Origin: Desulfurispora thermophila DSM 16022
GTDB taxonomy: Bacteria; Bacillota; Desulfotomaculia; Desulfotomaculales; Desulfurisporaceae
Direction: 5' to 3'
Assembly (NCBI RefSeq): GCF_000376385.1
Contig: NZ_AQWN01000002.1
Location: 124,115 to 188,114 of the forward strand
Length of the DNA: 64,000 nucleotides
The notes under the pieces were generated by a model. The model was not told where the DNA came from. It ran no database searches and saw only the letters and a list, made by a program, of their open reading frames with translations. A program made the translations under genes and the position numbers. Shown here piece after piece: positions 43,132-52,615 of this stretch; position 1 is the first letter of the stretch, and each line of letters begins with the position of its first letter.

Positions 43132-43206
<75 letters not shown>

Positions 43207-43257: not shown

Positions 43258-43370
43258 TGGTGCCTATTTACGCAATTCCAAAAATAAAACGCCGCTTGCC
43301 CAAAAAGGGTGAGTGGCAGCAAAGGAAGTAAGAAAACATAGACCCAGGATACACCCTGGATCTGTTGTAG

Positions 43371-44834
43371 TCATTCTATGCCGCAACGGTTAACCGGCAG
43401 CACGATATTGAAGGTGGTTCCTACGTTCAACTTACTTTCTACGTTAATCTGTCCTCCGTGGCCCTCCACAATTCTCTTGACAATGGCCAACCCCAGGCCG
43501 GTACCGCCTTGTACCCGGGTTCGGGACTTGTCACCTTTATAAAATCGCTCCCAGATCATGGGTAAATCTTCCGGCGCAATACCCTCACCGGTGTCGCTGA
43601 TACGGATGTGCACCTGGTTGGCCTTGGTAGTAACATCGAGTTCGATTTTTCCTCCGGAAGGGGTATGCCGGATAGCATTGGCAATTAAGTTGATCAATAC
43701 CCTCTCGATGCGGTCGCTATTGCAGGTAACCAAAGGTAGTTTCTTTTCTATGCTGATTTCCAAGTGAAGACCTTTCTCAACAATTATTTGAGTAAACCTC
43801 CGCTGCACCCTGGTGATGATCTTTCGCAAGTCACAAGGTTCCTTGTCAAAATCAAAGTGTCCCTCTTCCATGCGCTTCAAATCCAGTACCTCATTGACCA
43901 GACGTTTAAGACGGTTGATTTCTTCTAAAATGTTATTTAGATATTCATTGCGTTCTTTTTCGGTTTTAACCAGCCCATCGATCAGAGTTTCGGTGAATCC
44001 TTGCATAACCGCCAGAGGGGTTTTAATTTCATGGGCCACGTTGGTAACAAACTCCCGACGGATTTGGTCCTGTTGTTCGAGTTGGCTGATTTTTTCTTGC
44101 AGCCGGGAGGCCAGCGTATTGAGAGAGTTGGCCAGCAGGCCGATTTCATCGTTTGTCTGGATATCCACCCGTTGCTGATAATTGCCACTGGCCATTGCCA
44201 GGGCTACCCTGTTCATTTTTACCAGTGGTTTAGAGATAAACCGGGAGAAAACCAGGCTTAACAATGCGGCCAGGATAATACCCCCGGCAGCAGTGTAGAC
44301 AGTAAGCATCTGCAATCTTTTCAGTTCGTCTGCCAGGGGCTCCAAAGGAGCATGGATAATCACAGCTCTATTGATATTATCGTTATTTCTAAAGGGAATA
44401 CCTACCGATAAAACGTCGGTTTTAAAGTATGGGTTATTACCCTTGTGTACCACCGCCTGGCCCTGGTACAACTTTTTTATATCCTCCATGTTCATAGGGC
44501 CGTGATGGGGATTGTTCATATCCATTGGCATATTCTTGGTGCTCATACCCATGCCCTGACAATTAATGACAATGCCTTTTTCATTTAGAATCATTACGTT
44601 GGCATTATATAGTTTTGCGATCAAGGCTACTTTCTGGTCCAGCGCAGCGGGGTCTTGCTCCGCTCGAGCAATGTCTGCCACCTTATTGCCCAGAGCATTT
44701 AGTTGCTTGACCTGCTGTTTGTAGTACAATCCTTCCATAAAGCTGGTTTGTGCCACCCCAGCAATACCGATCACCACCAGCACCAAAATAGTCATAATGA
44801 CCCAGAGCTTAGTGACAATGTTGTTGATCTTCAT
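43371..44834 (-). CDS. sensor histidine kinase with Met/His-rich extracytoplasmic loop
   Basis: A 487-residue membrane kinase: TM1 (about 11-29), extracytoplasmic domain (30-175), TM2 (about 178-200), HAMP, HisKA with H268 (TNVAHEIKTPL), and an HATPase domain with intact N, G1 (DTGEGI) and G2 (GGTGLGLAIV) boxes. The sensor loop at 95-116 is packed with Met and His (M95, M97, M102, M104, M106, H110, H111, M114, M116), a pattern seen in copper- or silver-binding sites. It overlaps the response regulator gene by 4 bases. Autophosphorylation and transfer to that regulator are expected; metal sensing is inferred. Confidence 0.92.
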   Translation of the reverse strand: MKINNIVTKLWVIMTILVLVVIGIAGVAQTSFMEGLYYKQQVKQLNALGNKVADIARAEQDPAALDQKVALIAKLYNANVMILNEKGIVINCQGMGMSTKNMPMDMNNPHHGPMNMEDIKKLYQGQAVVHKGNNPYFKTDVLSVGIPFRNNDNINRAVIIHAPLEPLADELKRLQMLTVYTAAGGIILAALLSLVFSRFISKPLVKMNRVALAMASGNYQQRVDIQTNDEIGLLANSLNTLASRLQEKISQLEQQDQIRREFVTNVAHEIKTPLAVMQGFTETLIDGLVKTEKERNEYLNNILEEINRLKRLVNEVLDLKRMEEGHFDFDKEPCDLRKIITRVQRRFTQIIVEKGLHLEISIEKKLPLVTCNSDRIERVLINLIANAIRHTPSGGKIELDVTTKANQVHIRISDTGEGIAPEDLPMIWERFYKGDKSRTRVQGGTGLGLAIVKRIVEGHGGQINVESKLNVGTTFNIVLPVNRCGIE

Positions 44835-45520
44835 GACTCCACCTCAAATTTATATCCCACACCCCAAACGGTCTTGATAAAGGTGTGGGCACCGGCTGCC
44901 CGCAGTTTATCCCGCAGACGGTTAATATGGGTATCCACTGTCCGGACATCACCGTAGTAATCGTACCCCCAAACCTCCTCCAAAAGTTGCTCCCGGCTGA
45001 AGGGACGCCCAGTGAACCGGGCCAACAGTGCCAGCAGGTCAAACTCCTTGGGGGTCAGGGTAACAGGTTTTTCTTTGACCAGTACCTCACGTCTGATTAA
45101 ATCTATGCTCATGCCTGGGAACTTTAATAGGTGTTCTTCTTTTTTCTCACCGGTCCCTGTCCGGCGCATCACCGCCTTAATGCGGGCCACCAGTTCCCTG
45201 GGACTGAAAGGCTTGCCCATGTAGTCATCCGCTCCGAACTCCAGGCCCAAAATGCGGTCCACCTCTTCATTTTTGGCTGTCAGCATAATGATGGGCACCT
45301 GGGAAACCTTGCGGATTTCTTGGCACACTGTAACCCCATCCAGTTTGGGCATCATTACATCCAGTACGATTAAATCCCAATATTCGGTGCGGAACTTCCG
45401 CAAGGCTTCTTCGCCGTCTGCCGCTTCCCCCACCTGGTACCCCTCATTGGTTAAATAAATGCCGATCACCTGGCGAATTTTATCTTCATCATCTACCACC
45501 AGTATACGCAACGAACTCAT
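44831..45520 (-). CDS. OmpR/PhoB-family response regulator
   Basis: A 229-residue regulator: receiver (VVDDEDKIR, IVLDVMMPKLDG, MLTAKNEE, GKPFSPREL) and winged-helix DNA-binding domain (LTPKEFDLLALLARFTGRPFSREQLLEEVW, VDTHINRLRDKL). ATG 45520 is 8 bases from GGGAGG; two upstream ATGs are closer or lack a site. By family knowledge it binds direct repeats of about 11 bp, and such repeats precede several genes of this island, so it is their likely activator. First gene of the operon with the kinase. Confidence 0.94.
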   Translation of the reverse strand: MSSLRILVVDDEDKIRQVIGIYLTNEGYQVGEAADGEEALRKFRTEYWDLIVLDVMMPKLDGVTVCQEIRKVSQVPIIMLTAKNEEVDRILGLEFGADDYMGKPFSPRELVARIKAVMRRTGTGEKKEEHLLKFPGMSIDLIRREVLVKEKPVTLTPKEFDLLALLARFTGRPFSREQLLEEVWGYDYYGDVRTVDTHINRLRDKLRAAGAHTFIKTVWGVGYKFEVES

Positions 45521-45577
45521 CGCCATTTCCTCCCTCAATTAAACTGCCTGAATATACACGGGATGGTTACTGTGTTT

Positions 45578-45607
45578 ATAGTAAGGCTTAAAACAAGCCT
45601 TTGTCAA
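45578..45607 (-). promoter_or_regulatory. sigma-A promoter of the two-component operon
   Basis: On the minus strand TTGACA (45607-45602), 18-bp spacer (17 to an overlapping TTACTA), TACTAT (45583-45578). The spacer contains an AAGGCTT/AAGCCTT palindrome that might bind a regulator. Confidence 0.7.
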
Positions 45608-45622
45608 AGCCTGCAAGGGATT

Positions 45623-45676
45623 GTAACAAAAATGTTAAACCTGTGAAAAGAATTTTGTAACGCTTTTTTGATATAC
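45623..45676 (+). promoter_or_regulatory. tandem 11-bp half-sites and putative -10 in front of a short transcript
   Basis: GTAACA (45623), GTTAAA (45634) and GAAAAG (45645) lie at exact 11-bp period on the plus strand. ATATAC begins 20 bases after the third half-site. The motif resembles the operators at 45865, 48694 and 49711. The only thing immediately downstream is a small His-rich reading frame and a terminator. Confidence 0.45.
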
Positions 45677-45709
45677 GTATTGATGCTTTGCCCTTTGATG
45701 CACTTCTTT

Positions 45710-45790
45710 ATGATGAGGAATCATAAGCATCATGAATCACTTGAGAACACCCAAGCCGTAAAGAAACAAGAAATCCATTCACGATGCTGA
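45710..45790 (+). CDS. possible 26-residue His-rich peptide or small RNA
   Basis: A short frame MMRNHKHHESLEN... that ends in Cys, with four of its five His in the first 9 residues. The stop codon abuts a strong terminator hairpin and a candidate promoter lies 35 bases upstream, so a transcript of about 130 bases is plausible. No ribosome site precedes the ATG, so it may instead be a non-coding small RNA. Confidence 0.3.
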   Translation: MMRNHKHHESLENTQAVKKQEIHSRC

Positions 45791-45820
45791 GTAGGTTGGC
45801 CAATAGCCAACCTACTCTTT
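45790..45820 (+). terminator. intrinsic terminator in the intergenic region
   Basis: Perfect 11-bp stem AGTAGGTTGGC/GCCAACCTACT, loop CAATA, followed by CTTTTA. No annotated gene ends here, so it points to a short unrecognised transcript. Confidence 0.8.
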
Positions 45821-45864
45821 TATCTATATCTTAGATATTTCAGAGGGTTAAATATAAACAAAAT

Positions 45865-45907
45865 GTGATATCCCTGAAACAGTTTTGCCAAAGTTCTTTG
45901 TTATATT
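45865..45907 (+). promoter_or_regulatory. tandem-repeat operator and -10 for the Met-rich protein gene
   Basis: GTGATA (45865-45870)-TCCCT-GAAACA (45876-45881), then exactly 20 bases to TATATT (45902-45907). There is no -35 consensus; the second half-site covers that position, as in activator-dependent promoters. The transcript would have a leader of about 170 bases that includes two very short reading frames (45948-46002). Confidence 0.75.
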
Positions 45908-46086
45908 GTTACCTGTAAGGAACAACACCCGACGGGAGGTGGACCAAATGTTTACTAAACACTAGATGCTCCCCGCAGTGGCCCATTGCAAGGACTGCTG
46001 CTGAAGGTGGTCACGGACTAGACGATATACTGTCCAAACATCACAAAATATTATATTTTATATTAAATATATTGGAGGAATGAATA

Positions 46087-46473
46087 ATGAAACGTAAACT
46101 AATGGCCGGTATTGTAACCCTCGCCCTTGGTGCCCTGCTGGTACCTGCTGCTTTCGCTGCACGTAATGACAACCAGACTAACACTGTGCCCACAGCTCCC
46201 AGCACCCAAAATCAGCAGTTCTTTAACCAAATGTTTGACTGGCATAAAGCCTGGCTGGAGAATGCTGTTAAGAACAAGCAACTGACCGAAGAACAAGCTA
46301 AGGCCTGGGCCCAACACTTCGACCAAATGAAAGAATTCCATAGCAAAAATGGTTTTGGCCCGATGGGCGGTATGATGAACATGATGGGCAATGGTGGCAT
46401 GATGGGTAGCGGTATGGGCCTCATGATGAGCGGCGGCATGATGGGTAACTTCAACACACCTTCCAGTAAATAA
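46087..46473 (+). CDS. secreted Met-rich protein (DUF2680-like)
   Basis: A 128-residue exported protein. The signal peptide ends near PAAFAA. The middle (LENAVKNKQLTEEQAKAWAQHFDQM) resembles the small DUF2680/YckD family. The C-terminus is a Met/Gly run (MGGMMNMMGNGGMMGSGMG) that could bind copper or silver through thioethers. Function is not known; the metal role is inferred from composition and from the neighbouring Met-rich sensor. ATG 46087 follows GGAGGA. Confidence 0.8.
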   Translation: MKRKLMAGIVTLALGALLVPAAFAARNDNQTNTVPTAPSTQNQQFFNQMFDWHKAWLENAVKNKQLTEEQAKAWAQHFDQMKEFHSKNGFGPMGGMMNMMGNGGMMGSGMGLMMSGGMMGNFNTPSSK

Positions 46474-46567
46474 GTGTACCTGTTAGCCATCATTACCCTT
46501 CGGTTCCACAGCCCCCTTTCTTGAATAAATGGCACGAACTCCTCTAAAAGGGAGTTCGTGCTTTTCT

Positions 46568-46747
46568 CTATAACATAGTGAGGGCTTCCTGGCATTTCTT
46601 GATACAATTCTCCAGGGAATCGGTGGCCTGCTGCAGATTAGTCTTAGCTTGGGTGTTTTGAACGATATTGGCCAGGTTCTTAAGATCATTGGATGTAGCT
46701 TGACAGTGGGAAAGGCAGGACTGTATCATTTGTTTTTCGTGCATCAT
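46568..46747 (-). CDS. small helical protein with two CxxxC motifs (DUF1657-like)
   Basis: A 59-residue protein predicted to form an alpha-helical hairpin. LKNLANIVQNTQAKTNLQQA resembles the DUF1657 family, but here the two helices carry CLSHC and CIKKC, each a one-turn CxxxC pair that would face the other in a hairpin. Such pairs bind Cu(I) in copper-storage proteins; here this is inference. ATG 46747 follows GGAGGAG on the minus strand. No signal peptide. Confidence 0.7.
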   Translation of the reverse strand: MMHEKQMIQSCLSHCQATSNDLKNLANIVQNTQAKTNLQQATDSLENCIKKCQEALTML

Positions 46748-47011
46748 AGTTTTCTCCTCCTTGATTTTGCAAAGTCTAAGATTGATTAAGGTTATTATGA
46801 AAAAATTCATTTGCCTTTATTCATTTCATCTGTTTTTTGCAACTAGAAAATCCCCTGTATTGCAAAGATTTTTCCCCAGGCACCGGGAGAACAATGAAAA
46901 TATTCATGCATAATAGAGATGGGGTAATTATCACACTGCGCCGTTTGCAGGACCAAAGCTTTAATTCTAGGGAGATATGGAAACCTGTTCTTTCCATTTT
47001 GCGGCAGAATT
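46748..47011. other. intergenic region, no gene recognised
   Basis: AT-rich gap between the divergent CxxxC and PepSY-like genes. I see no coding frame with a ribosome site and no clear hairpin; the operator of the PepSY-like gene begins at 47012. Confidence 0.6.
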
Positions 47012-47065
47012 ATCACAAAAACCTTAAACGGTTGTGCTACTTTTGTAAAACTTGGTTGTTATGAT
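47012..47065 (+). promoter_or_regulatory. tandem-repeat operator and -10 for the PepSY-like gene
   Basis: Half-sites ATCACA (47012), CTTAAA (47023), GTGCTA (47034) and GTAAAA (47045) run at exact 11-bp period. TATGAT (47060-47065) begins 20 bases after GTGCTA, the same geometry as at 45865 and 48694. The predicted start leaves a leader of about 23 bases before the TTG start. Confidence 0.6.
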
Positions 47066-47094
47066 AAAACCATAAAACAAAGGAGGGGATCATT

Positions 47095-47790
47095 TTGAAC
47101 AAAAAACTGCTGGTGTCAGGATTATTGATCGGGACACTTTTGTTATCCATACTTGTTCTAACTTCCGCCAACGTCAAGGATAACTTTGGGGGCTGGGGAA
47201 TGGGACAGGGACTGCCTGGAATGGGAATGATGGGTTCTTCCATGATGGGTAGCGGCGGTATTGCCCTGAAGGAGCCGGTAGATTCTGAAAAGGCAGAGGA
47301 GTTGGTCAATGACTATTTAAAAACTTCAGGACTGGAGGGCATTTCCCTGGCGGAACTGATGGAGTTTGATACCCACTTTTATGTGGAGACAAGGGAAGAC
47401 CAAAGTGGCAAGTATGCCCAAGAGTTTATTTTGGATAAGCGTACTGGCTCCATCAGCCCGGAAATTGGGCCCAATATGATGTGGAATATCAAGTACGGGC
47501 ATATGGGCGGTATGATGATGGGTTACAGTTCAGAGGCCAGTGATAAGCCATCTGTTTCACCGGAGGATTCTATAAAAATTGCCAACGATTATTTAAAAGG
47601 AAAAAATTCCGGTGAGACTGCGGCTGAACCCCATGAATTTTATGGCTACTACACTCTGCATACCCTTAAAGACGGAAAAATCGTTGGCATGCTCAGTGTC
47701 AACAGTGTCACCGGTCAAGTCTGGTATCACACTTGGCACGGTAACTTTGTAGGAATGAAAAGCGTCGATGGCCATGCCCATAGGAATTAG
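47095..47790 (+). CDS. exported PepSY-like protein with Met-rich segments
   Basis: A 231-residue exported protein with an uncleaved or signal-type N-terminal hydrophobic segment. It then has a Met/Gly-rich stretch (GMGQGLPGMGMMGSSMMGSG) and two PepSY-like repeats, each with a helix (EKAEELVNDYLKTSG; DSIKIANDYLKGKNS) and a strand pair ending with conserved G and W (SVNSVTGQVWYHTWHG). The first repeat also ends near a Met cluster (GHMGGMMMG). Possibly a metal-binding envelope protein. TTG 47095 follows AGGAGGGG. Confidence 0.75.
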   Translation: MNKKLLVSGLLIGTLLLSILVLTSANVKDNFGGWGMGQGLPGMGMMGSSMMGSGGIALKEPVDSEKAEELVNDYLKTSGLEGISLAELMEFDTHFYVETREDQSGKYAQEFILDKRTGSISPEIGPNMMWNIKYGHMGGMMMGYSSEASDKPSVSPEDSIKIANDYLKGKNSGETAAEPHEFYGYYTLHTLKDGKIVGMLSVNSVTGQVWYHTWHGNFVGMKSVDGHAHRN

Positions 47791-47914
47791 GAAGCAGAAA
47801 ACAATAAACATTGTACGTAGTGGGTATGTATGGCCACGTCCACTCCCACTATTAGTGTTTCGGGTGTGATCATGGCCAGTTTCTGGCTTAAGGTGTTGTT
47901 CAAGTCGGCTTCCT

Positions 47915-47968
47915 CCTGGTATTGGTGGTTTAGTCTTTCCAACTAAACCATACCAGGATTTTTTCTTT
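47915..47968 (+). terminator. intrinsic terminator downstream of the PepSY-like gene
   Basis: CCTGGTA and TGGTTTAGT pair with ACTAAACCA and TACCAGG around loop CTTTCCA; followed by ATTTTTTC. Confidence 0.85.
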
Positions 47969-47994
47969 TCCTCAATTCCCGACATTCTTCATTA

Positions 47995-48216
47995 CAGAAA
48001 TGCTGGCTGTTTGCCAACACTCCACGGGGTGCCCGGGCCAGTGCGATTATTTACAGCATTGTTGAGACAGCGAAGGAGAACGGGTTAAACCCCTTCCAGT
48101 ACCTGTGTTATCTCTTTGAGAAACTGCCCAACCTGGATATGAAGGACGAACAGGCTCTGGATGAGTTGCTGCCGTGGTCTGATAGGCTGCCCGCTGACTG
48201 CCGGGTTAGCAAGTAG
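47995..48216 (+). pseudogene. IS66-family transposase C-terminal remnant
   Basis: About 73 codons in one frame with no start, reading WLFANTPRGARASAIIYS, ETAKENGLNPFQYLCYLFEK and LPWSDRLP before a stop. This is the characteristic C-terminal end of IS66 transposases. The rest of the element and its terminal repeats are absent, so it is a relic within the AT-rich island. Confidence 0.8.
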
Positions 48217-48227
48217 TACATTATAAC

Positions 48228-48315
48228 CCCCACCTGGTTGGCAAGGTGGGGTTATTTTACGCTTACGATTAAAGTCCCCACCTTGTTGGCAAGGTGGGGA
48301 TTATTTTACGCTTAC
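48228..48315 (+). repeat. tandem direct repeat of a hairpin unit (2 copies, 48-bp period)
   Basis: Two nearly identical units, each CCCCACC-(10 bases)-GGTGGGG followed by TTATTTTACGCTTAC, begin at 48228 and 48276. Each is a GC hairpin with a T-rich tail, so they could act as a double terminator after the transposase remnant, or mark the edge of a lost element. Confidence 0.8.
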
Positions 48316-48343
48316 TTATGAACTACGAACCTAGATAGTATTA

Positions 48344-48577
48344 CTACCGGGATAATTCTTCTTTAAGTTTTTTGTACTCATCTTCAGTTATCTCGTTCCG
48401 GGCATATCTGAATTTTAAAATATCCAGGGCTCCGTACGACGCTCCTTCTTTAAGGGCATTTTTTACTCCGGAATTTACTGCCCAGTAAACTACTAAACCT
48501 AACAGTGCTAGCGGGATCAGCATCATAATAATCCCTCCGAACCATCCCATACCATAGCTACCGTACATCATTGGCAT
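48344..48577 (-). CDS. small SHOCT-domain membrane protein
   Basis: A 77-residue protein with a Met/Tyr-rich N-terminus (MPMMYGSYGMGW), one membrane helix (IIMMLIPLALLGLVVYWAV) and a C-terminal SHOCT helix pair (LDILKFRYARNEITEDEYKKLKEEL). SHOCT proteins are small oligomerisation or anchoring modules. ATG 48577 follows AGGAGG. Its promoter carries the island operator (48694-48736). Confidence 0.85.
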   Translation of the reverse strand: MPMMYGSYGMGWFGGIIMMLIPLALLGLVVYWAVNSGVKNALKEGASYGALDILKFRYARNEITEDEYKKLKEELSR

Positions 48578-48693
48578 TACGCATTCCTCCTTTAAAGTTT
48601 TTTATATAATTCCCTTAAGGGATTATTTTAAAAAGCTATCTTAAATACAAAGGTCTATTAATATGAAAGATGTTGACAGAGGTCTCGCAGTTT

Positions 48694-48736
48694 AGTATAT
48701 AACGGGGTTATTACAGCCCTGTCACAGGGGTATCAC
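48694..48736 (-). promoter_or_regulatory. tandem-repeat operator and -10 for the SHOCT protein gene
   Basis: On the minus strand: GTGATA (48736-48731)-CCCCT-GTGACA (48725-48720)-GGGCT-GTAATA-ACCCC-GTTATA (ending 48698), all at 11-bp period. TATACT (48699-48694) starts exactly 20 bases after GTGACA. It is the clearest example of the island operator. Confidence 0.78.
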
Positions 48737-48945
48737 ATTTTCGTGATATTTAACACATCCAGAATTATGAAGATAAAGATGGTCTTTATTCAACTATAAT
48801 TCGGCCCTGTCTACAATGAAAATAACGAGATGGCCATTAGTCCAATTTATAATCCGTCCGGCAATTGTTCGGTAATAGAGATGTTTGTGATGACAAGTAT
48901 CAAATCCGGGATGATAGGAGGATATTATTTTTTAGGAATAAATAT
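48737..48945. other. intergenic region, no gene recognised
   Basis: AT-rich gap behind the SHOCT gene promoter. No convincing gene or hairpin up to the terminator at 48946; the plus-strand frame beginning here is the opposite strand of the lipoprotein gene. Confidence 0.55.
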
Positions 48946-48976
48946 GGAACAGGCTCCCGCAGCGGTAACCTGTTCC
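48946..48976 (-). terminator. terminator-like hairpin after the Met-rich lipoprotein gene
   Basis: GGAACAGG/CCTGTTCC 8-bp stem with a 15-base loop; on the minus strand it is followed by ATATTTATT. Confidence 0.6.
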
Positions 48977-48990
48977 CTTTCACCTGGTAA

Positions 48991-49482
48991 TTACTTCATA
49001 CCCATTGCTTCTTTGGCCAAGGGCATCAGTTTGGGGTTCTTCATCATGGCCATGAAAGTATCTTTCATGCGAGGATCGGCCATTATTTCCATCATCGGCT
49101 GTCTCATGGCTGGGTCAGACATGATCTTGATCATAGCTTCCCGAGTTTCCGGTGCACCCATAATTTTTACCATGCTCTTTTGCATGTCAGCGTTTTTCAT
49201 CATATCCATCATGGCGGGCATCATCTTTTCGGAGCTCATAATTTTGGTCATTGACTGGCGGGTTTCGGGGGAACTCATTGCATCCATCATTATGTCGGGA
49301 TTCTGGTTCATCATACTCATCATGTCACCGATTTTCATGTCTCCCAGTTGCTGGTGTTGTTCGTGCTGTTGCTGAGCGGTAGTGTCTGTCTTTTTCTCTT
49401 CTTTGCCGGCGCAACCGCTTACAAAAGCAGCCATTAACATTAAAGAAACTACTACCATGAATACTTTTTTGGTTCTTGACAT
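48991..49482 (-). CDS. Met-rich lipoprotein with degenerate tandem repeats
   Basis: A 163-residue lipoprotein: signal with lipobox VSGC, a Gln/His linker (QQQHEQHQQ), then roughly 25-residue repeats containing paired Met (PETRQSMTKIM, PETREAMIKIM, PAMRQPMMEIM, PRMKDTFMAMM). The repeat pattern resembles STI1-type helical repeats, but the abundance of MxxM and MM suggests soft-metal binding (inference). ATG 49482 follows AAAGGAG. Expected to sit on the outer face of the membrane; lgt in the same island could lipidate it. Confidence 0.8.
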   Translation of the reverse strand: MSRTKKVFMVVVSLMLMAAFVSGCAGKEEKKTDTTAQQQHEQHQQLGDMKIGDMMSMMNQNPDIMMDAMSSPETRQSMTKIMSSEKMMPAMMDMMKNADMQKSMVKIMGAPETREAMIKIMSDPAMRQPMMEIMADPRMKDTFMAMMKNPKLMPLAKEAMGMK

Positions 49483-49624
49483 CTTGTTAACTCCTTTCAT
49501 TTGGTAAGCTAGTTCAGTTCTTGATTAATCGAATTCCAACTATGTAGCCTCAGTCACCTCCCTAAAAATAATATCTTTTTATGATGAATTTCATCATTAC
49601 TTGTAATTTTCCTGCTATGACAAA

Positions 49625-49641
49625 TAACACATTTTTGTAAC
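49625..49641 (-). promoter_or_regulatory. possible operator for the Met-rich lipoprotein gene
   Basis: On the minus strand GTTACA-AAAAT-GTGTTA, two half-sites 11 bp apart, about 140 bases upstream of the gene. No good -10 lies 20 bases downstream, so this site is weaker evidence than those at 45865, 48694 and 49711. Confidence 0.4.
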
Positions 49642-49710
49642 AAAAAAGCGTGTATGTCTCATCTGATAAAATATTTGTTACCACTTAAATTTAATAACTC
49701 AATCTAAAGT

Positions 49711-49764
49711 GTCACAAAAAAGTGATATTTTTGTAACAGGGATGAGAATTTTTTACTGTATTAT
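49711..49764 (+). promoter_or_regulatory. triple tandem-repeat operator and -10 for the Cys-rich protein/NapH operon
   Basis: GTCACA (49711)-AAAAA-GTGATA (49722)-TTTTT-GTAACA (49733-49738), all at exact 11-bp period; then exactly 20 bases to TATTAT (49759-49764). Transcription would start near 49771, about 36 bases before the first gene. Confidence 0.78.
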
Positions 49765-49806
49765 TCTCACATAAACAAAACAAATAAGGTTAAGGGGGTT
49801 GCGCAA

Positions 49807-50048
49807 TTGAAAAAAAAATTATTACCACATTTACTTTAATTTCCAGTTTATTTGTTGCTTCAACTGCTTTTGCCGCCAATGACAATAGCAGTGACAGAAG
49901 CAACTATGTTGAAATGTTGAATAACTGCAAGGTTGCCTTAAAGCAATCGTTAGGCAAGGATTGGAAACAGCACATCGAAATGATGAAGGCGGGTAGTTGT
50001 CCTGAGTGCGGTATGACTGCCGAAAAATGCTCTATGAATATGGATTAA
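49807..50048 (+). CDS. small secreted Cys-rich protein with out-of-frame poly-A start
   Basis: An 80-residue exported protein: signal peptide IITTFTLISSLFVASTAFA, then a short domain ending SCPECGMTAEKCSMNMD, with a CxxC that could bind metal. The expected TTG start at 49807 after AAGGGGG is followed by nine As, which puts the signal peptide out of frame; ten As would restore a natural MKKK start. In the correct frame the first codons are GCA-ATT-GAA with no standard start. Either a frameshift, transcriptional slippage, or an ATT start. I list it as intact with that caveat. Confidence 0.55.
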
Positions 50049-50132
50049 GATAAAAGGGCTTCCCGGTTACGGGGGCTCGATTTACATAAAAAAAGATTTA
50101 TATACAAATGTAAATTGAAAAAGGTGATGAAA

Positions 50133-50423
50133 ATGAGATTAAATCAGCCTGGCAATTTATTAAGGTTGGTTATGGTGGCGTTATTAGTAATAGCTCCCTT
50201 GGCAACAGGTGCTCTGGCTGCGAGCGATGTCCCTGGTGATCCCCATGCCGGTCATGACATGAGCACAATGAACCAGTCGGATATGAGTTCAGCAAATCAA
50301 GCTGACCCCAATGCAGGGCACGATATGAGTAATGTGAACTGGCCGGTGATCTATGGTTTTGCCGCTTTCAATTTGCTCGTTATAATAGCAGCTGCTCTAT
50401 TAAAAAGGTACGCAAAGAGATGA
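50133..50423 (+). CDS. membrane-anchored His/Met protein with repeated GHDMS motif
   Basis: A 96-residue protein: signal anchor (about 12-34), an extracytoplasmic segment with two copies of DP-AGHDMS (DPHAGHDMSTMNQ and DPNAGHDMSNVNW), and a C-terminal membrane helix. His and Met spacing suggests copper binding; no known family. ATG 50133 follows AAAGGTG. It lies 11 bases before the NapH-like gene, probably in the same operon and perhaps its metal-handling accessory. Confidence 0.7.
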   Translation: MRLNQPGNLLRLVMVALLVIAPLATGALAASDVPGDPHAGHDMSTMNQSDMSSANQADPNAGHDMSNVNWPVIYGFAAFNLLVIIAAALLKRYAKR

Positions 50424-50434
50424 GGTGAATTTAG

Positions 50435-51775
50435 ATGAAAGAACAAAGCAAAGGTAGCCAGTTGCTAAAAAGTATACTGAGAAGTAAATGGTATCCTGGC
50501 ATTTTTCAATGGCCAACCTTAATTGTTTTTGCAATTATCTTGTATGAATTATTAATCGGCATTCCCGTGGCTCACGAAAACTTTGGTACAGCCATGACCT
50601 GGGTGCTCTGGTGGCCTATAATCCCGCTAATCTTCCTTTTGGTGGGTCGCTTCTGGTGTGCGATCTGTCCCTTTGCTACCTTGAGCGATCTGGTGCAGAA
50701 ATTTGTGGGCAACAACCGTCCGGTGCCCAAATTTTTGAAGAAGTACGGTATATGGATTATTGACGCCTTCTTCATTTTAATCACCTGGGCAGACCATGTA
50801 TATGGCATTGTGGAATCCCCCCGGGGTTCCGGCGTGTTGCTCCTTATGATCACCACTGGTGTTATTATGGCCGGGGCCTTTTTTGAAAGAAGAACCTGGT
50901 GCCGTTATCTTTGCTTCATTGGTGGTCTGGCAGGCAACTATTCCCGGGCTGGTGCTCTGCAACTACGGGGTACTCCTGAGAAGTGTGCCAGGTGTACTGT
51001 TAGTGCTTGTTATAAAGGTTCGGAAAAGGTACCGGGCTGTCCTATGTTTGAGTTTCCGAAGACGATGGACAACAGTGCCCGCTGCAACTTCTGCGGCAAC
51101 TGTGTGAAGAACTGTCCCAACGATTCCATTACCGTTTCCACAAGGATACCCTCCAGGGAATTGTGGTTTATTCGCCGGCCCAAACTGGAAGAATCCTTCC
51201 TGGCCATTGTCATTATGGGTATCGTATTTGTGCAGAACATTACCATGCTGGAAGTTTGGGCTGAAATTCAGCAGTGGATGGGCAATGTACTGGGAACAGG
51301 TAATAAAGATGTGCTCTTTACTGTCACCTTTATCATTGCTATGGCCGTCCCAGCACTCATTCTTTATCTGACCAGTTGGTTGGCATCCTTAAAGAACTCC
51401 GACAATGCTTCGATGAACTTTACTAAATTTGGTTATGCGTTAATACCGCTGGATTTTGCGGGTCATATGGCCCACAACCTTTTCCACCTGCTGGCGGAAG
51501 GTAAATCGGTTTTGTATACCGGTCTGGCTCTTTTCGGAATTAGAAACCAAAGCGCATCTGCTGCCCTGGTGGGCATGGAAACCATCGCGTTCCTGCAGTA
51601 TGCCCTGCTAGCCTTGGGTACAACAGCATCTATATACACGGCTTACCGCATTGCCAGGTCTAATTACAAGGAAAATGAGATCATGGGTACAGTGTTGCCC
51701 TATACTATCCTCATCCTGATCCTGGTGATCTTCAACATCTATCTATTTCTGCTGCCGATGGCTCATAGAATGTAA
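50435..51775 (+). CDS. NapH/NosR-like membrane polyferredoxin
   Basis: A 446-residue integral membrane protein with about eight helices. Cys motifs of the NapH/NosR/CcoG group: FWCAICPFA and WCRYLCF on the membrane-spanning halves, CARCTVSAC...GCPMF, and the ferredoxin motif CNFCGNCVKNCP in the cytoplasmic loop. Such proteins move electrons across or along the membrane, for example in nitrate, nitrous oxide or copper-enzyme maturation. No oxidoreductase partner is nearby. A role in supplying reductant to envelope metal chemistry is inferred. ATG 50435 follows GAGGTG. Confidence 0.85.
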   Translation: MKEQSKGSQLLKSILRSKWYPGIFQWPTLIVFAIILYELLIGIPVAHENFGTAMTWVLWWPIIPLIFLLVGRFWCAICPFATLSDLVQKFVGNNRPVPKFLKKYGIWIIDAFFILITWADHVYGIVESPRGSGVLLLMITTGVIMAGAFFERRTWCRYLCFIGGLAGNYSRAGALQLRGTPEKCARCTVSACYKGSEKVPGCPMFEFPKTMDNSARCNFCGNCVKNCPNDSITVSTRIPSRELWFIRRPKLEESFLAIVIMGIVFVQNITMLEVWAEIQQWMGNVLGTGNKDVLFTVTFIIAMAVPALILYLTSWLASLKNSDNASMNFTKFGYALIPLDFAGHMAHNLFHLLAEGKSVLYTGLALFGIRNQSASAALVGMETIAFLQYALLALGTTASIYTAYRIARSNYKENEIMGTVLPYTILILILVIFNIYLFLLPMAHRM

Positions 51776-51805
51776 AATAAATTTCTCAAATCTGGGAGGC
51801 AACTC

Positions 51806-52585
51806 GTGTATCCGGTACTTTTTCATATCGGCAACTTTCCTGTTAGATCCTGGGGTGTTATGGTGGTTCTGGGAATTTTAGCCGGCCTTTGGCTCGCAGC
51901 TCGATTGGCTAAAAAAGAGAACATTGCTCCGGAAAAAGTTGTGGAATTTACCTTGTATGCATTTTATGCAGGTATTGCAGGTGCCCGCCTCTGGGAAGTT
52001 ATTTGGGGTTGGGAAAAATTCTCGTCCCACCCCGGAGAGGCATTAAAGTTCTGGTCAGGAGGGCTGTCTATCCAGGGTGGGGTGGTGGCAGGTTTGCTTG
52101 TGTGTATTTGGTTTGTGCGCAAACATAACCTTTCCACATGGAAATTTGCCGATGTATTGGCTCCGGGCCTGATCCTGGGTCAGGGTATCGGGAGAGTTGG
52201 TTGCCTATTAAATGGGGATGCTTATGGTATACCCACCAACCTGCCTATCGGGGTTTCATATAAAGAAGGAACCCCTGCCTATGCCGTCTACGGGGCCCAA
52301 CCCTTATTTCCAGCTGAAATAATAGAGGGTATAGCAGATATTGTCATCTTGTTTATCCTTCTGCGCGTATATAGACGCAAACCCTTTGACGGTGCGGTAG
52401 CTTTGTATTATTTTATCTTTTACTCCATCGTTCGGTTTACTCTGGAGTTTTGGCGGTCAGACAGCTTGTTAATTCTGGGCGGCTTAAAGGTAGCACAGTT
52501 GACAACGCTGGGTACTATGCTGCTGGCTTTGGCTGTTGTTTTTCATAATTGGCGTAGAAAAAAGATGGAAAATCATAGAGCATGA
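51806..52585 (+). CDS. lgt: prolipoprotein diacylglyceryl transferase
   Basis: A 259-residue membrane enzyme with seven helices that adds diacylglycerol to the lipobox Cys of prolipoproteins. The Lgt signature is seen in GRVGCLLNGDAYG and the preceding GLSIQGGVVAG, and YAVYGAQPLFPAEI is family-typical. GTG 51806 follows TGGGAGG. It is 30 bases after the NapH-like gene, so it is in the island operon. Lgt is usually a housekeeping gene located elsewhere; here it may be a second copy serving the island lipoprotein (inference). Confidence 0.95.
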   Translation: MYPVLFHIGNFPVRSWGVMVVLGILAGLWLAARLAKKENIAPEKVVEFTLYAFYAGIAGARLWEVIWGWEKFSSHPGEALKFWSGGLSIQGGVVAGLLVCIWFVRKHNLSTWKFADVLAPGLILGQGIGRVGCLLNGDAYGIPTNLPIGVSYKEGTPAYAVYGAQPLFPAEIIEGIADIVILFILLRVYRRKPFDGAVALYYFIFYSIVRFTLEFWRSDSLLILGGLKVAQLTTLGTMLLALAVVFHNWRRKKMENHRA

Positions 52586-52615
52586 GTTCACTGCTTGCCG
52601 GTGAACTCTTTTTAT
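52585..52615 (+). terminator. intrinsic terminator after lgt
   Basis: AGTTCAC/GTGAACT stem overlapping the lgt stop, followed by CTTTTTATTTT. It marks the right edge of the island transcript. Confidence 0.85.

Follow-up and report, generated by a model that had tools for sequence, protein, structure and literature searches.

A 64,000-nucleotide stretch of the 2.82-Mb genome of Desulfurispora thermophila DSM 16022 (G000:C2:124115-188114; hereafter, the window) harbors four strong copies of a 54-bp promoter element, located next to the genes of a sensor histidine kinase and of an OmpR/PhoB-family response regulator. The element has a defined architecture, is conserved in other genomes of the same order (whose members include Desulforamulus, Desulforadius, and Desulfoscipio), is linked to this kinase/regulator pair, and precedes recurrent families of genes. 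Judging from sequence comparisons, we consider it likely, with a probability of roughly 0.8, that the copies are activator sites of the regulator encoded at 44831-45520 and belong to one two-component regulon. An initial annotation of this DNA had proposed the same, and the clustering of the sites near the kinase and regulator genes, their co-occurrence with the kinase, a common recognition helix in the regulators, and the recurrent targets all speak for it.

Architecture and distribution of the 54-bp element

The position matrix and a sequence-only covariance model (R1) were built from the sites of the relatives, and the training set included neither the window nor G082, G080, G024, G007, and G101, among others. 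According to the matrix trained on relatives alone, the element reads RTnACAAAAAT-GTGAYAnnnTT-GTnACAGnTTT-GTAAAAnTT-N6-TATAAT, that is, four half-sites (RTnACA, GTGAYA, GTnACA, and GTAAAA) spaced at an 11-bp period, and then a -10 box resembling TATAAT. Three copies lie on the plus strand: 45854..45907 (half-sites at 45854, 45865, 45876, and 45887; -10 box TATATT at 45902-45907; 43.4 bits; R1 E=4e-7), 47012..47065 (half-sites at 47012, 47023, 47034, and 47045; TATGAT at 47060-47065; 50.0 bits; R1 E=3e-8), and 49711..49764 (half-sites at 49711, 49722, 49733, and 49744; TATTAT at 49759-49764; 42.9 bits; R1 E=7e-7). The fourth, 48694..48747, is on the minus strand (TATACT at 48699-48694; 46.7 bits; R1 E=7e-8).

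The pattern originally reported, GTGATA-N5-(GAAACA/GTGACA/GTAACA)-N20-(TATATT/TATACT/TATTAT), is exact at 45865 (+), 48736 (-), and 49722 (+); the two half-sites that it describes are half-sites 2 and 3 of the four, and the copy at 47012, regarded as a looser version, is actually the top scorer. The 11-bp period and the lack of a -35 box were both borne out: identical bases amount to 46-54% at shift 11 versus 18-36% at the other shifts from 5 to 16, and the best agreement with TTGACA is two positions out of six at spacings of 15-19. Given a transcription start about 7 nt past the -10 box, the half-sites would begin near -60, -49, -38, and -27.

The short pattern by itself is only weakly enriched (14 matches in the window at two mismatches or fewer, against 8.7 expected by chance); thus, it is the full architecture and its conservation that decide significance. 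This weak enrichment is what could be said for a chance similarity in AT-rich intergenic DNA, an explanation to which we give practically no weight, as it is already refuted by the relatives-only matrix. With this matrix, the next score in the window after the four elements is 8.3 bits (at 45634, one base out of register), shuffling of the window gives at most 0.9 bits, and sequences of AT-rich intergenic composition at most 13.4 bits. Moreover, the repeats are present in the orthologous promoters of relatives: the site blocks are 56-93% identical to them, compared with 42-78%, mostly near 50%, for the 100 bp upstream.

A fifth, decayed site is found at 45624..45675 (+). The partial version placed at 45623 by the initial annotation is therefore a real copy (R1 E=9.6e-6), although a degenerate one, with a 1-nt insertion before half-site 4, and it lies upstream of a gene remnant. 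The latter (45668..45790, plus strand) would have encoded a small Met/His membrane protein (61% identity over 31 residues, E=1e-10), whose intact 49-residue homologue in D. aeronauticus (L052) has an intact site at L052:18530; hence, the site at 45624 (+) is best read, from these sequences, as the decaying promoter of a lost gene, the former target of this site. A further partial site claimed at 49625 (+) was dropped, since only a weak minus-strand fragment is present there (E=0.4).

The three exact copies of the short pattern are the sole matches with one mismatch or fewer in the whole genome. The next ones have two mismatches, and those inspected (L004 and L005) fall in coding sequence or in unrelated places and were not accepted as sites. 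The scan of the genome and of its relatives that had been suggested gave one genomic cluster: R1 retrieved five matches at E<=1e-5, all within the 4 kb from 45624 to 49764, and then nothing below E=0.03. Among the weaker matches (E 0.03-0.05), the first, C9:12557 (-) at E=0.03, immediately precedes another DUF2680 gene of this genome, and strong sites are also found upstream of DUF2680 genes in G052 and G034; it is a probable sixth site on this sequence context. Another of these matches, C7:19699, was discarded for want of supporting context. Across the 113 genomes of the order, sites at E<=1e-4 were retrieved from 26; in these scans the best candidates per genome were scored, and weak sites may be missed.

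The two-component pair and its proposed binding of the sites

The kinase (43371..44834, minus strand) is composed, according to its Pfam domains, of a transmembrane segment, an extracytoplasmic PAS-like domain, a second transmembrane segment, and HAMP, HisKA, and HATPase domains. HAMP (residues 196-247) directly precedes HisKA (259-325), and no Pfam match to an internal PAS was found between them. The predicted model of the sensor domain (predicted local distance difference test, pLDDT, of 89) has the WalK extracellular/receptor domain as its closest fold, and its loop C-x-GMG...M...HH is conserved in orthologues. The regulator, the proposed binder of the sites (44831..45520, minus strand), matches Response_reg (PF00072, 113 bits) and Trans_reg_C (PF00486, 103 bits) above the Pfam cut-offs, in agreement with the OmpR-family assignment made earlier.

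In our reading, the kinase would sense an extracytoplasmic stress through the PAS-like domain with its Cys-GMG-Met-HisHis loop, the likeliest stressor being a soft metal, for instance Cu(I) or Ag(I), and would phosphorylate the regulator. The latter would bind the four direct half-sites as two tandem dimers (four subunits), stand in for the absent -35 box, and bring the housekeeping RNA polymerase to the -10 box, which resembles TATAAT. A single signal would thus turn on the DUF2680-like, Met-rich (47095), and SHOCT proteins together with the Cys-rich/Met-His/NapH-like/lgt operon.

The distribution of the kinase points to the same pair. Its orthologues in Desulforamulus (69-89% identical) have the same sites in their neighbourhood, and a kinase homologue (E<=1e-100) is encoded no more than 12 kb away from 72 of 120 sites. 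Such a homologue occurs in 21 of the 26 site-bearing genomes versus 48 of the 113 overall (Fisher p=9e-6), and sites are present in 12 of 12 genomes with a kinase at least 54% identical versus 14 of the 101 others (p=2e-9), both tests being at the genome level and uncorrected for relatedness. Furthermore, the recognition helix hardly varies among the regulators that accompany the sites (GDxRTVDTHINRLRxKL), which also have the wing T(V/I)(W/R)GVGYKFE in common; three unrelated regulators neighbouring sites differ. G043 has two copies of the pair, each decayed in a different member (L125:10828-11759 and L051:9721-11402, about 0.8 Mb apart), with an intact regulator and an 81-residue kinase stump at one locus and an intact kinase and a 73-residue regulator remnant at the other. 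Sites persist at both loci, as a trans-acting regulator predicts, and most of the nearby ones adjoin the intact regulator copy.

Besides the shared ancestry left in these tests, several observations weigh against the assignment of the sites to this regulator: no site precedes the regulator gene itself (44831-45520), about 40% of the sites lie away from any kinase of this family, five genomes have sites and no close kinase, most strong sites belong to one genus, and a paralogue could bind as well, since half-sites 3 and 4, in the consensus derived from some 100 sites, fit the WalR/VicR consensus, TGTWAH-N5-TGTWAH (PMC4168254). A different OmpR-family regulator, of the WalR or PhoP type, might then be the binder, the neighbouring two-component system being incidental or sharing the sites. 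The WalK-like fold of the sensor agrees with this, as does a paralogous kinase subfamily (L127, L129, L132, L138, and L142) without the Met/His/Cys loop, near which there are sites (class B: GTTAAA-N5-GTGACA-N5-GTGACA) almost identical to those treated here (class A), making cross-talk possible. However, WalR boxes would be expected genome-wide, yet all the matches at E<=1e-5 fall within 4 kb of this pair; since the sites also co-occur with this kinase family and, in G043, mostly adjoin its intact regulator, we regard binding by another regulator as improbable.

The fixed distance to the -10 box, together with SigI among the targets of relatives, might alternatively indicate the promoter of an alternative sigma factor, or else a repressor operator. 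Four direct repeats at helical period and a housekeeping-type -10 box suit an OmpR-type activator instead, and the sites are retained in a genome whose best match to SigI is a distant one (E=5e-5, 28% identity), so that this alternative appears very unlikely, and activation by the OmpR/PhoB-type regulator remains the preferred explanation.

Target genes, leader peptide, and possible signal

Target genes were collected downstream of sites with scores of 30 bits or more (121, from 24 genomes, with two regions entered twice). The families retrieved were DUF2680-like proteins (18 genomes), SHOCT proteins (8), Met/His-rich plus NapH-like operons (8), SigI-RsgI (5), and the Met-rich protein encoded here at 47095 (4); the same families follow sites in genomes outside the training set. 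Other site-linked genes of the relatives encode an HtrA-like protease, M23 peptidases, FeoB-N, CcdA/TlpA, and HMA P-type ATPases.

In the window, the site at 45854 precedes a gene for a secreted Met-rich DUF2680-like protein (46087..46473, plus strand; Pfam DUF2680 below cut-off, E=0.0022), and the site at 47012 precedes one for a Met-rich exported protein (47095..47790, plus strand). The site-gene order of the latter is the same in G081, G052, and G043; it has no match to any Pfam family, and the PepSY label that it had received is not supported. The minus-strand site starting at 48747 has as its target a small membrane SHOCT protein (48344..48577, minus strand; SHOCT above cut-off), which follows sites in the eight genomes mentioned. 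The site at 49711 opens the proposed Cys-rich/NapH/lgt operon. Its first open reading frame (ORF), 49808..50047 (+), for a small Cys-rich exported protein with the motif CPECGMTAEKC, is frameshifted at an A9 tract after a TTG start; a homologue in L054 (84% identical over 58 residues) is intact, and the break may be a true frameshift, slippage or phase variation, or an assembly error. A Met/His-rich small membrane protein (50115..50423, plus strand) and a NapH-like membrane polyferredoxin (50435..51775, plus strand; Fer4_5/Fer4 above cut-offs, NapH NCBIfam models below) both recur after sites in eight genomes, while the prolipoprotein diacylglyceryl transferase gene lgt at the operon end (51806..52585, plus strand; Pfam LGT, E=1e-63) has a site of 30 bits or more before it in this genome only.

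Two other features lie among these genes. A small Cys-containing protein (CLSHC, CIKKC) encoded at 46568-46810 (-) is 83% identical over 52 residues to an ORF of L125, and no regulatory site was found before its gene. At 48225-48302 a short hairpin-like repeat (CCCCACCTTGTTGGCAAGGTGGGG) is present in two near-identical tandem copies, probably terminators.

Between the site at 45854 and the DUF2680-like gene there is a conserved leader (45948..46035, plus strand), consisting of an 18-codon peptide ORF, MFTKH*MLPAVAHCKDCC, with a TAG at codon 6 in this copy, and then a small hairpin. The leader occurs in 68 of the 113 genomes; its peptide has 18-26 codons, with the consensus MLRKxWMLRxVAHCKGGC and the variants M(L/F)(R/T)K-x-(W/Y)ML(R/P)xVAHCKGGC, and the 3' hairpin, GGGCA-N11-TGCCC, contains covarying pairs. 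In 30 copies (L170-L199), conservation by codon position is 0.89/0.88/0.54, and H13, C14, and C18 are invariant. In five genomes the leader lies some 0.2 kb upstream of genes for CopA-type ATPases, and an Rfam search with it gave no match. The leader recalls the copper-responsive leader CruR (PMC9426467), to which it is unrelated in sequence; the peptide could possibly be a copper sensor.

The whole cassette was probably acquired horizontally together with the regulator and sites, to judge from identity and composition. The kinase, the regulator, and the 47095, SHOCT, and NapH-like proteins reach 87-93% identity to Desulforamulus, while the flanking amidohydrolase is 56-59% identical; the flanking acyl-CoA dehydrogenase has no D. 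putei match at E<=1e-60 and is 82% identical to its Desulfoscipio counterpart. GC content is 44% across 43.3-52.6 kb versus 56% and 52% in the flanks, and the low-GC block (43300-52600) starts beside a tRNA gene (43132-43203). Arrival of the cassette with its own regulator would account for the clustering of the sites in this genome.

The conserved C-x-GMG...M...HH loop and the Met/Cys-rich targets suggest a soft metal as the signal. From these sequences, the chances that the system senses a metal appear about even, and the Met/Cys-rich envelope proteins would probably serve to cope with a toxic metal, copper for example. The copper reading is weakened by the two CopA-type ATPase genes of this genome, near which no site match was found, and, as regards specificity, by the class-B targets, which resemble envelope stress. 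The regulon might instead answer general envelope or thiol/redox stress, as could be expected from the SigI-RsgI, HtrA-like protease, M23 peptidase, and FeoB-N genes that follow (mainly class-B) sites in relatives, and from the CcdA/TlpA-type operon that follows class-A sites. However, the kinase loop is kept in class A and absent from class B, class-A targets are rich in Met, His, and Cys, and in L057 and L143 the genes of CopA-type ATPases bearing Cu signatures have weak sites before them; we therefore hold a general stress signal to be a real but less favoured possibility.

As for class B itself, a large regulon was observed in relatives (L125-L129, L131, L132, and L157), with more than 15 sites spread over about 60 kb in G043. 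It adjoins a kinase without the metal loop and includes an HtrA-like protease, M23 peptidases, FeoB-N, a chemoreceptor, an HMA ATPase, and many small exported Met/Tyr-rich proteins.

The literature that could be searched holds no description of this regulon, of a DUF2680 function, of a Desulforamulus copper two-component system, or of any metal-responsive two-component system in this order of anaerobic Firmicutes; within that literature, the regulon is undescribed, as had been stated. The present data yield a transcription-factor motif and a position matrix for a regulon that recurs in many genomes of the order and comprises otherwise uncharacterised envelope proteins rich in Met, His, and Cys (DUF2680, SHOCT, and NapH-like), and DUF2680 proteins are thereby placed in a defined stress response. 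They also offer natural experiments, namely the reciprocally decayed duplicate systems, the decayed target with its out-of-register site, and the apparent transfer of a whole cassette. A more speculative and rather doubtful idea is that a WalRK-derived pair turned into a self-contained mobile metal-defence module (sensor, regulator, four-half-site promoters, and Met/Cys-rich targets) in sulfate reducers of the Desulfotomaculum type and in their relatives, and that several genomes combine it with the 18-26-residue HCKGGC leader and 3' hairpin, which may sense copper during translation in a manner analogous to CruR.

Comparison with known two-component systems

The system resembles WalRK/VicRK (YycFG) in its OmpR-family regulator, TGTWAH(A) half-site, 11-bp period (PMC4168254), and WalK-like extracellular PAS fold. 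It differs from it in the kinase, which is without an internal PAS and has a Met/His/Cys sensor loop, in the four half-sites at a fixed distance from the -10 box, and in the small local regulon. The NCBIfam scores are below the curated cut-offs for WalK (309 versus 725 bits) and for YycF (239 versus 340).

Tandem 11-bp repeats replacing the -35 box are shared with the Pho-box promoters of PhoB/PhoP. In B. subtilis, the promoters of the PhoP regulon have four repeats resembling TTAACA ahead of the -10 box. The PHO boxes of PhoB consist of two 11-nt repeats, placed in tandem instead of the -35 box and bound head-to-tail (PMC4415409). Unlike PhoB/PhoP, no phosphate genes are among the targets here, and the curated PhoB score is below cut-off (243 versus 296 bits). 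CiaR sites (NTTAAG-N5-TTTAAG) have two half-sites and the same 11-bp period, with a different half-site sequence (PMC4938410).

With CopRS/CusRS, the system has in common a Met/His-bearing extracytoplasmic kinase loop and a very small regulon beside its own genes, the latter being also the case of C. glutamicum CopR (PMC3140484). However, the CopR site is TGAAGATTTnnTGAAGATTT, copper ATPases are outside the regulon of this genome, and the heavy-metal kinase and regulator models TIGR01386 and TIGR01387 score 210 versus 292.55 and 179 versus 279.2 bits, respectively. A WalRK or CusRS/CopRS label for this pair was rejected on these curated cut-offs. On the sequence evidence, then, the system would work like a PhoB/WalR-type activator regulon, and its regulator is of the OmpR/PhoB family, while by the curated scores it is not WalRK, PhoBR, or CusRS/CopRS.

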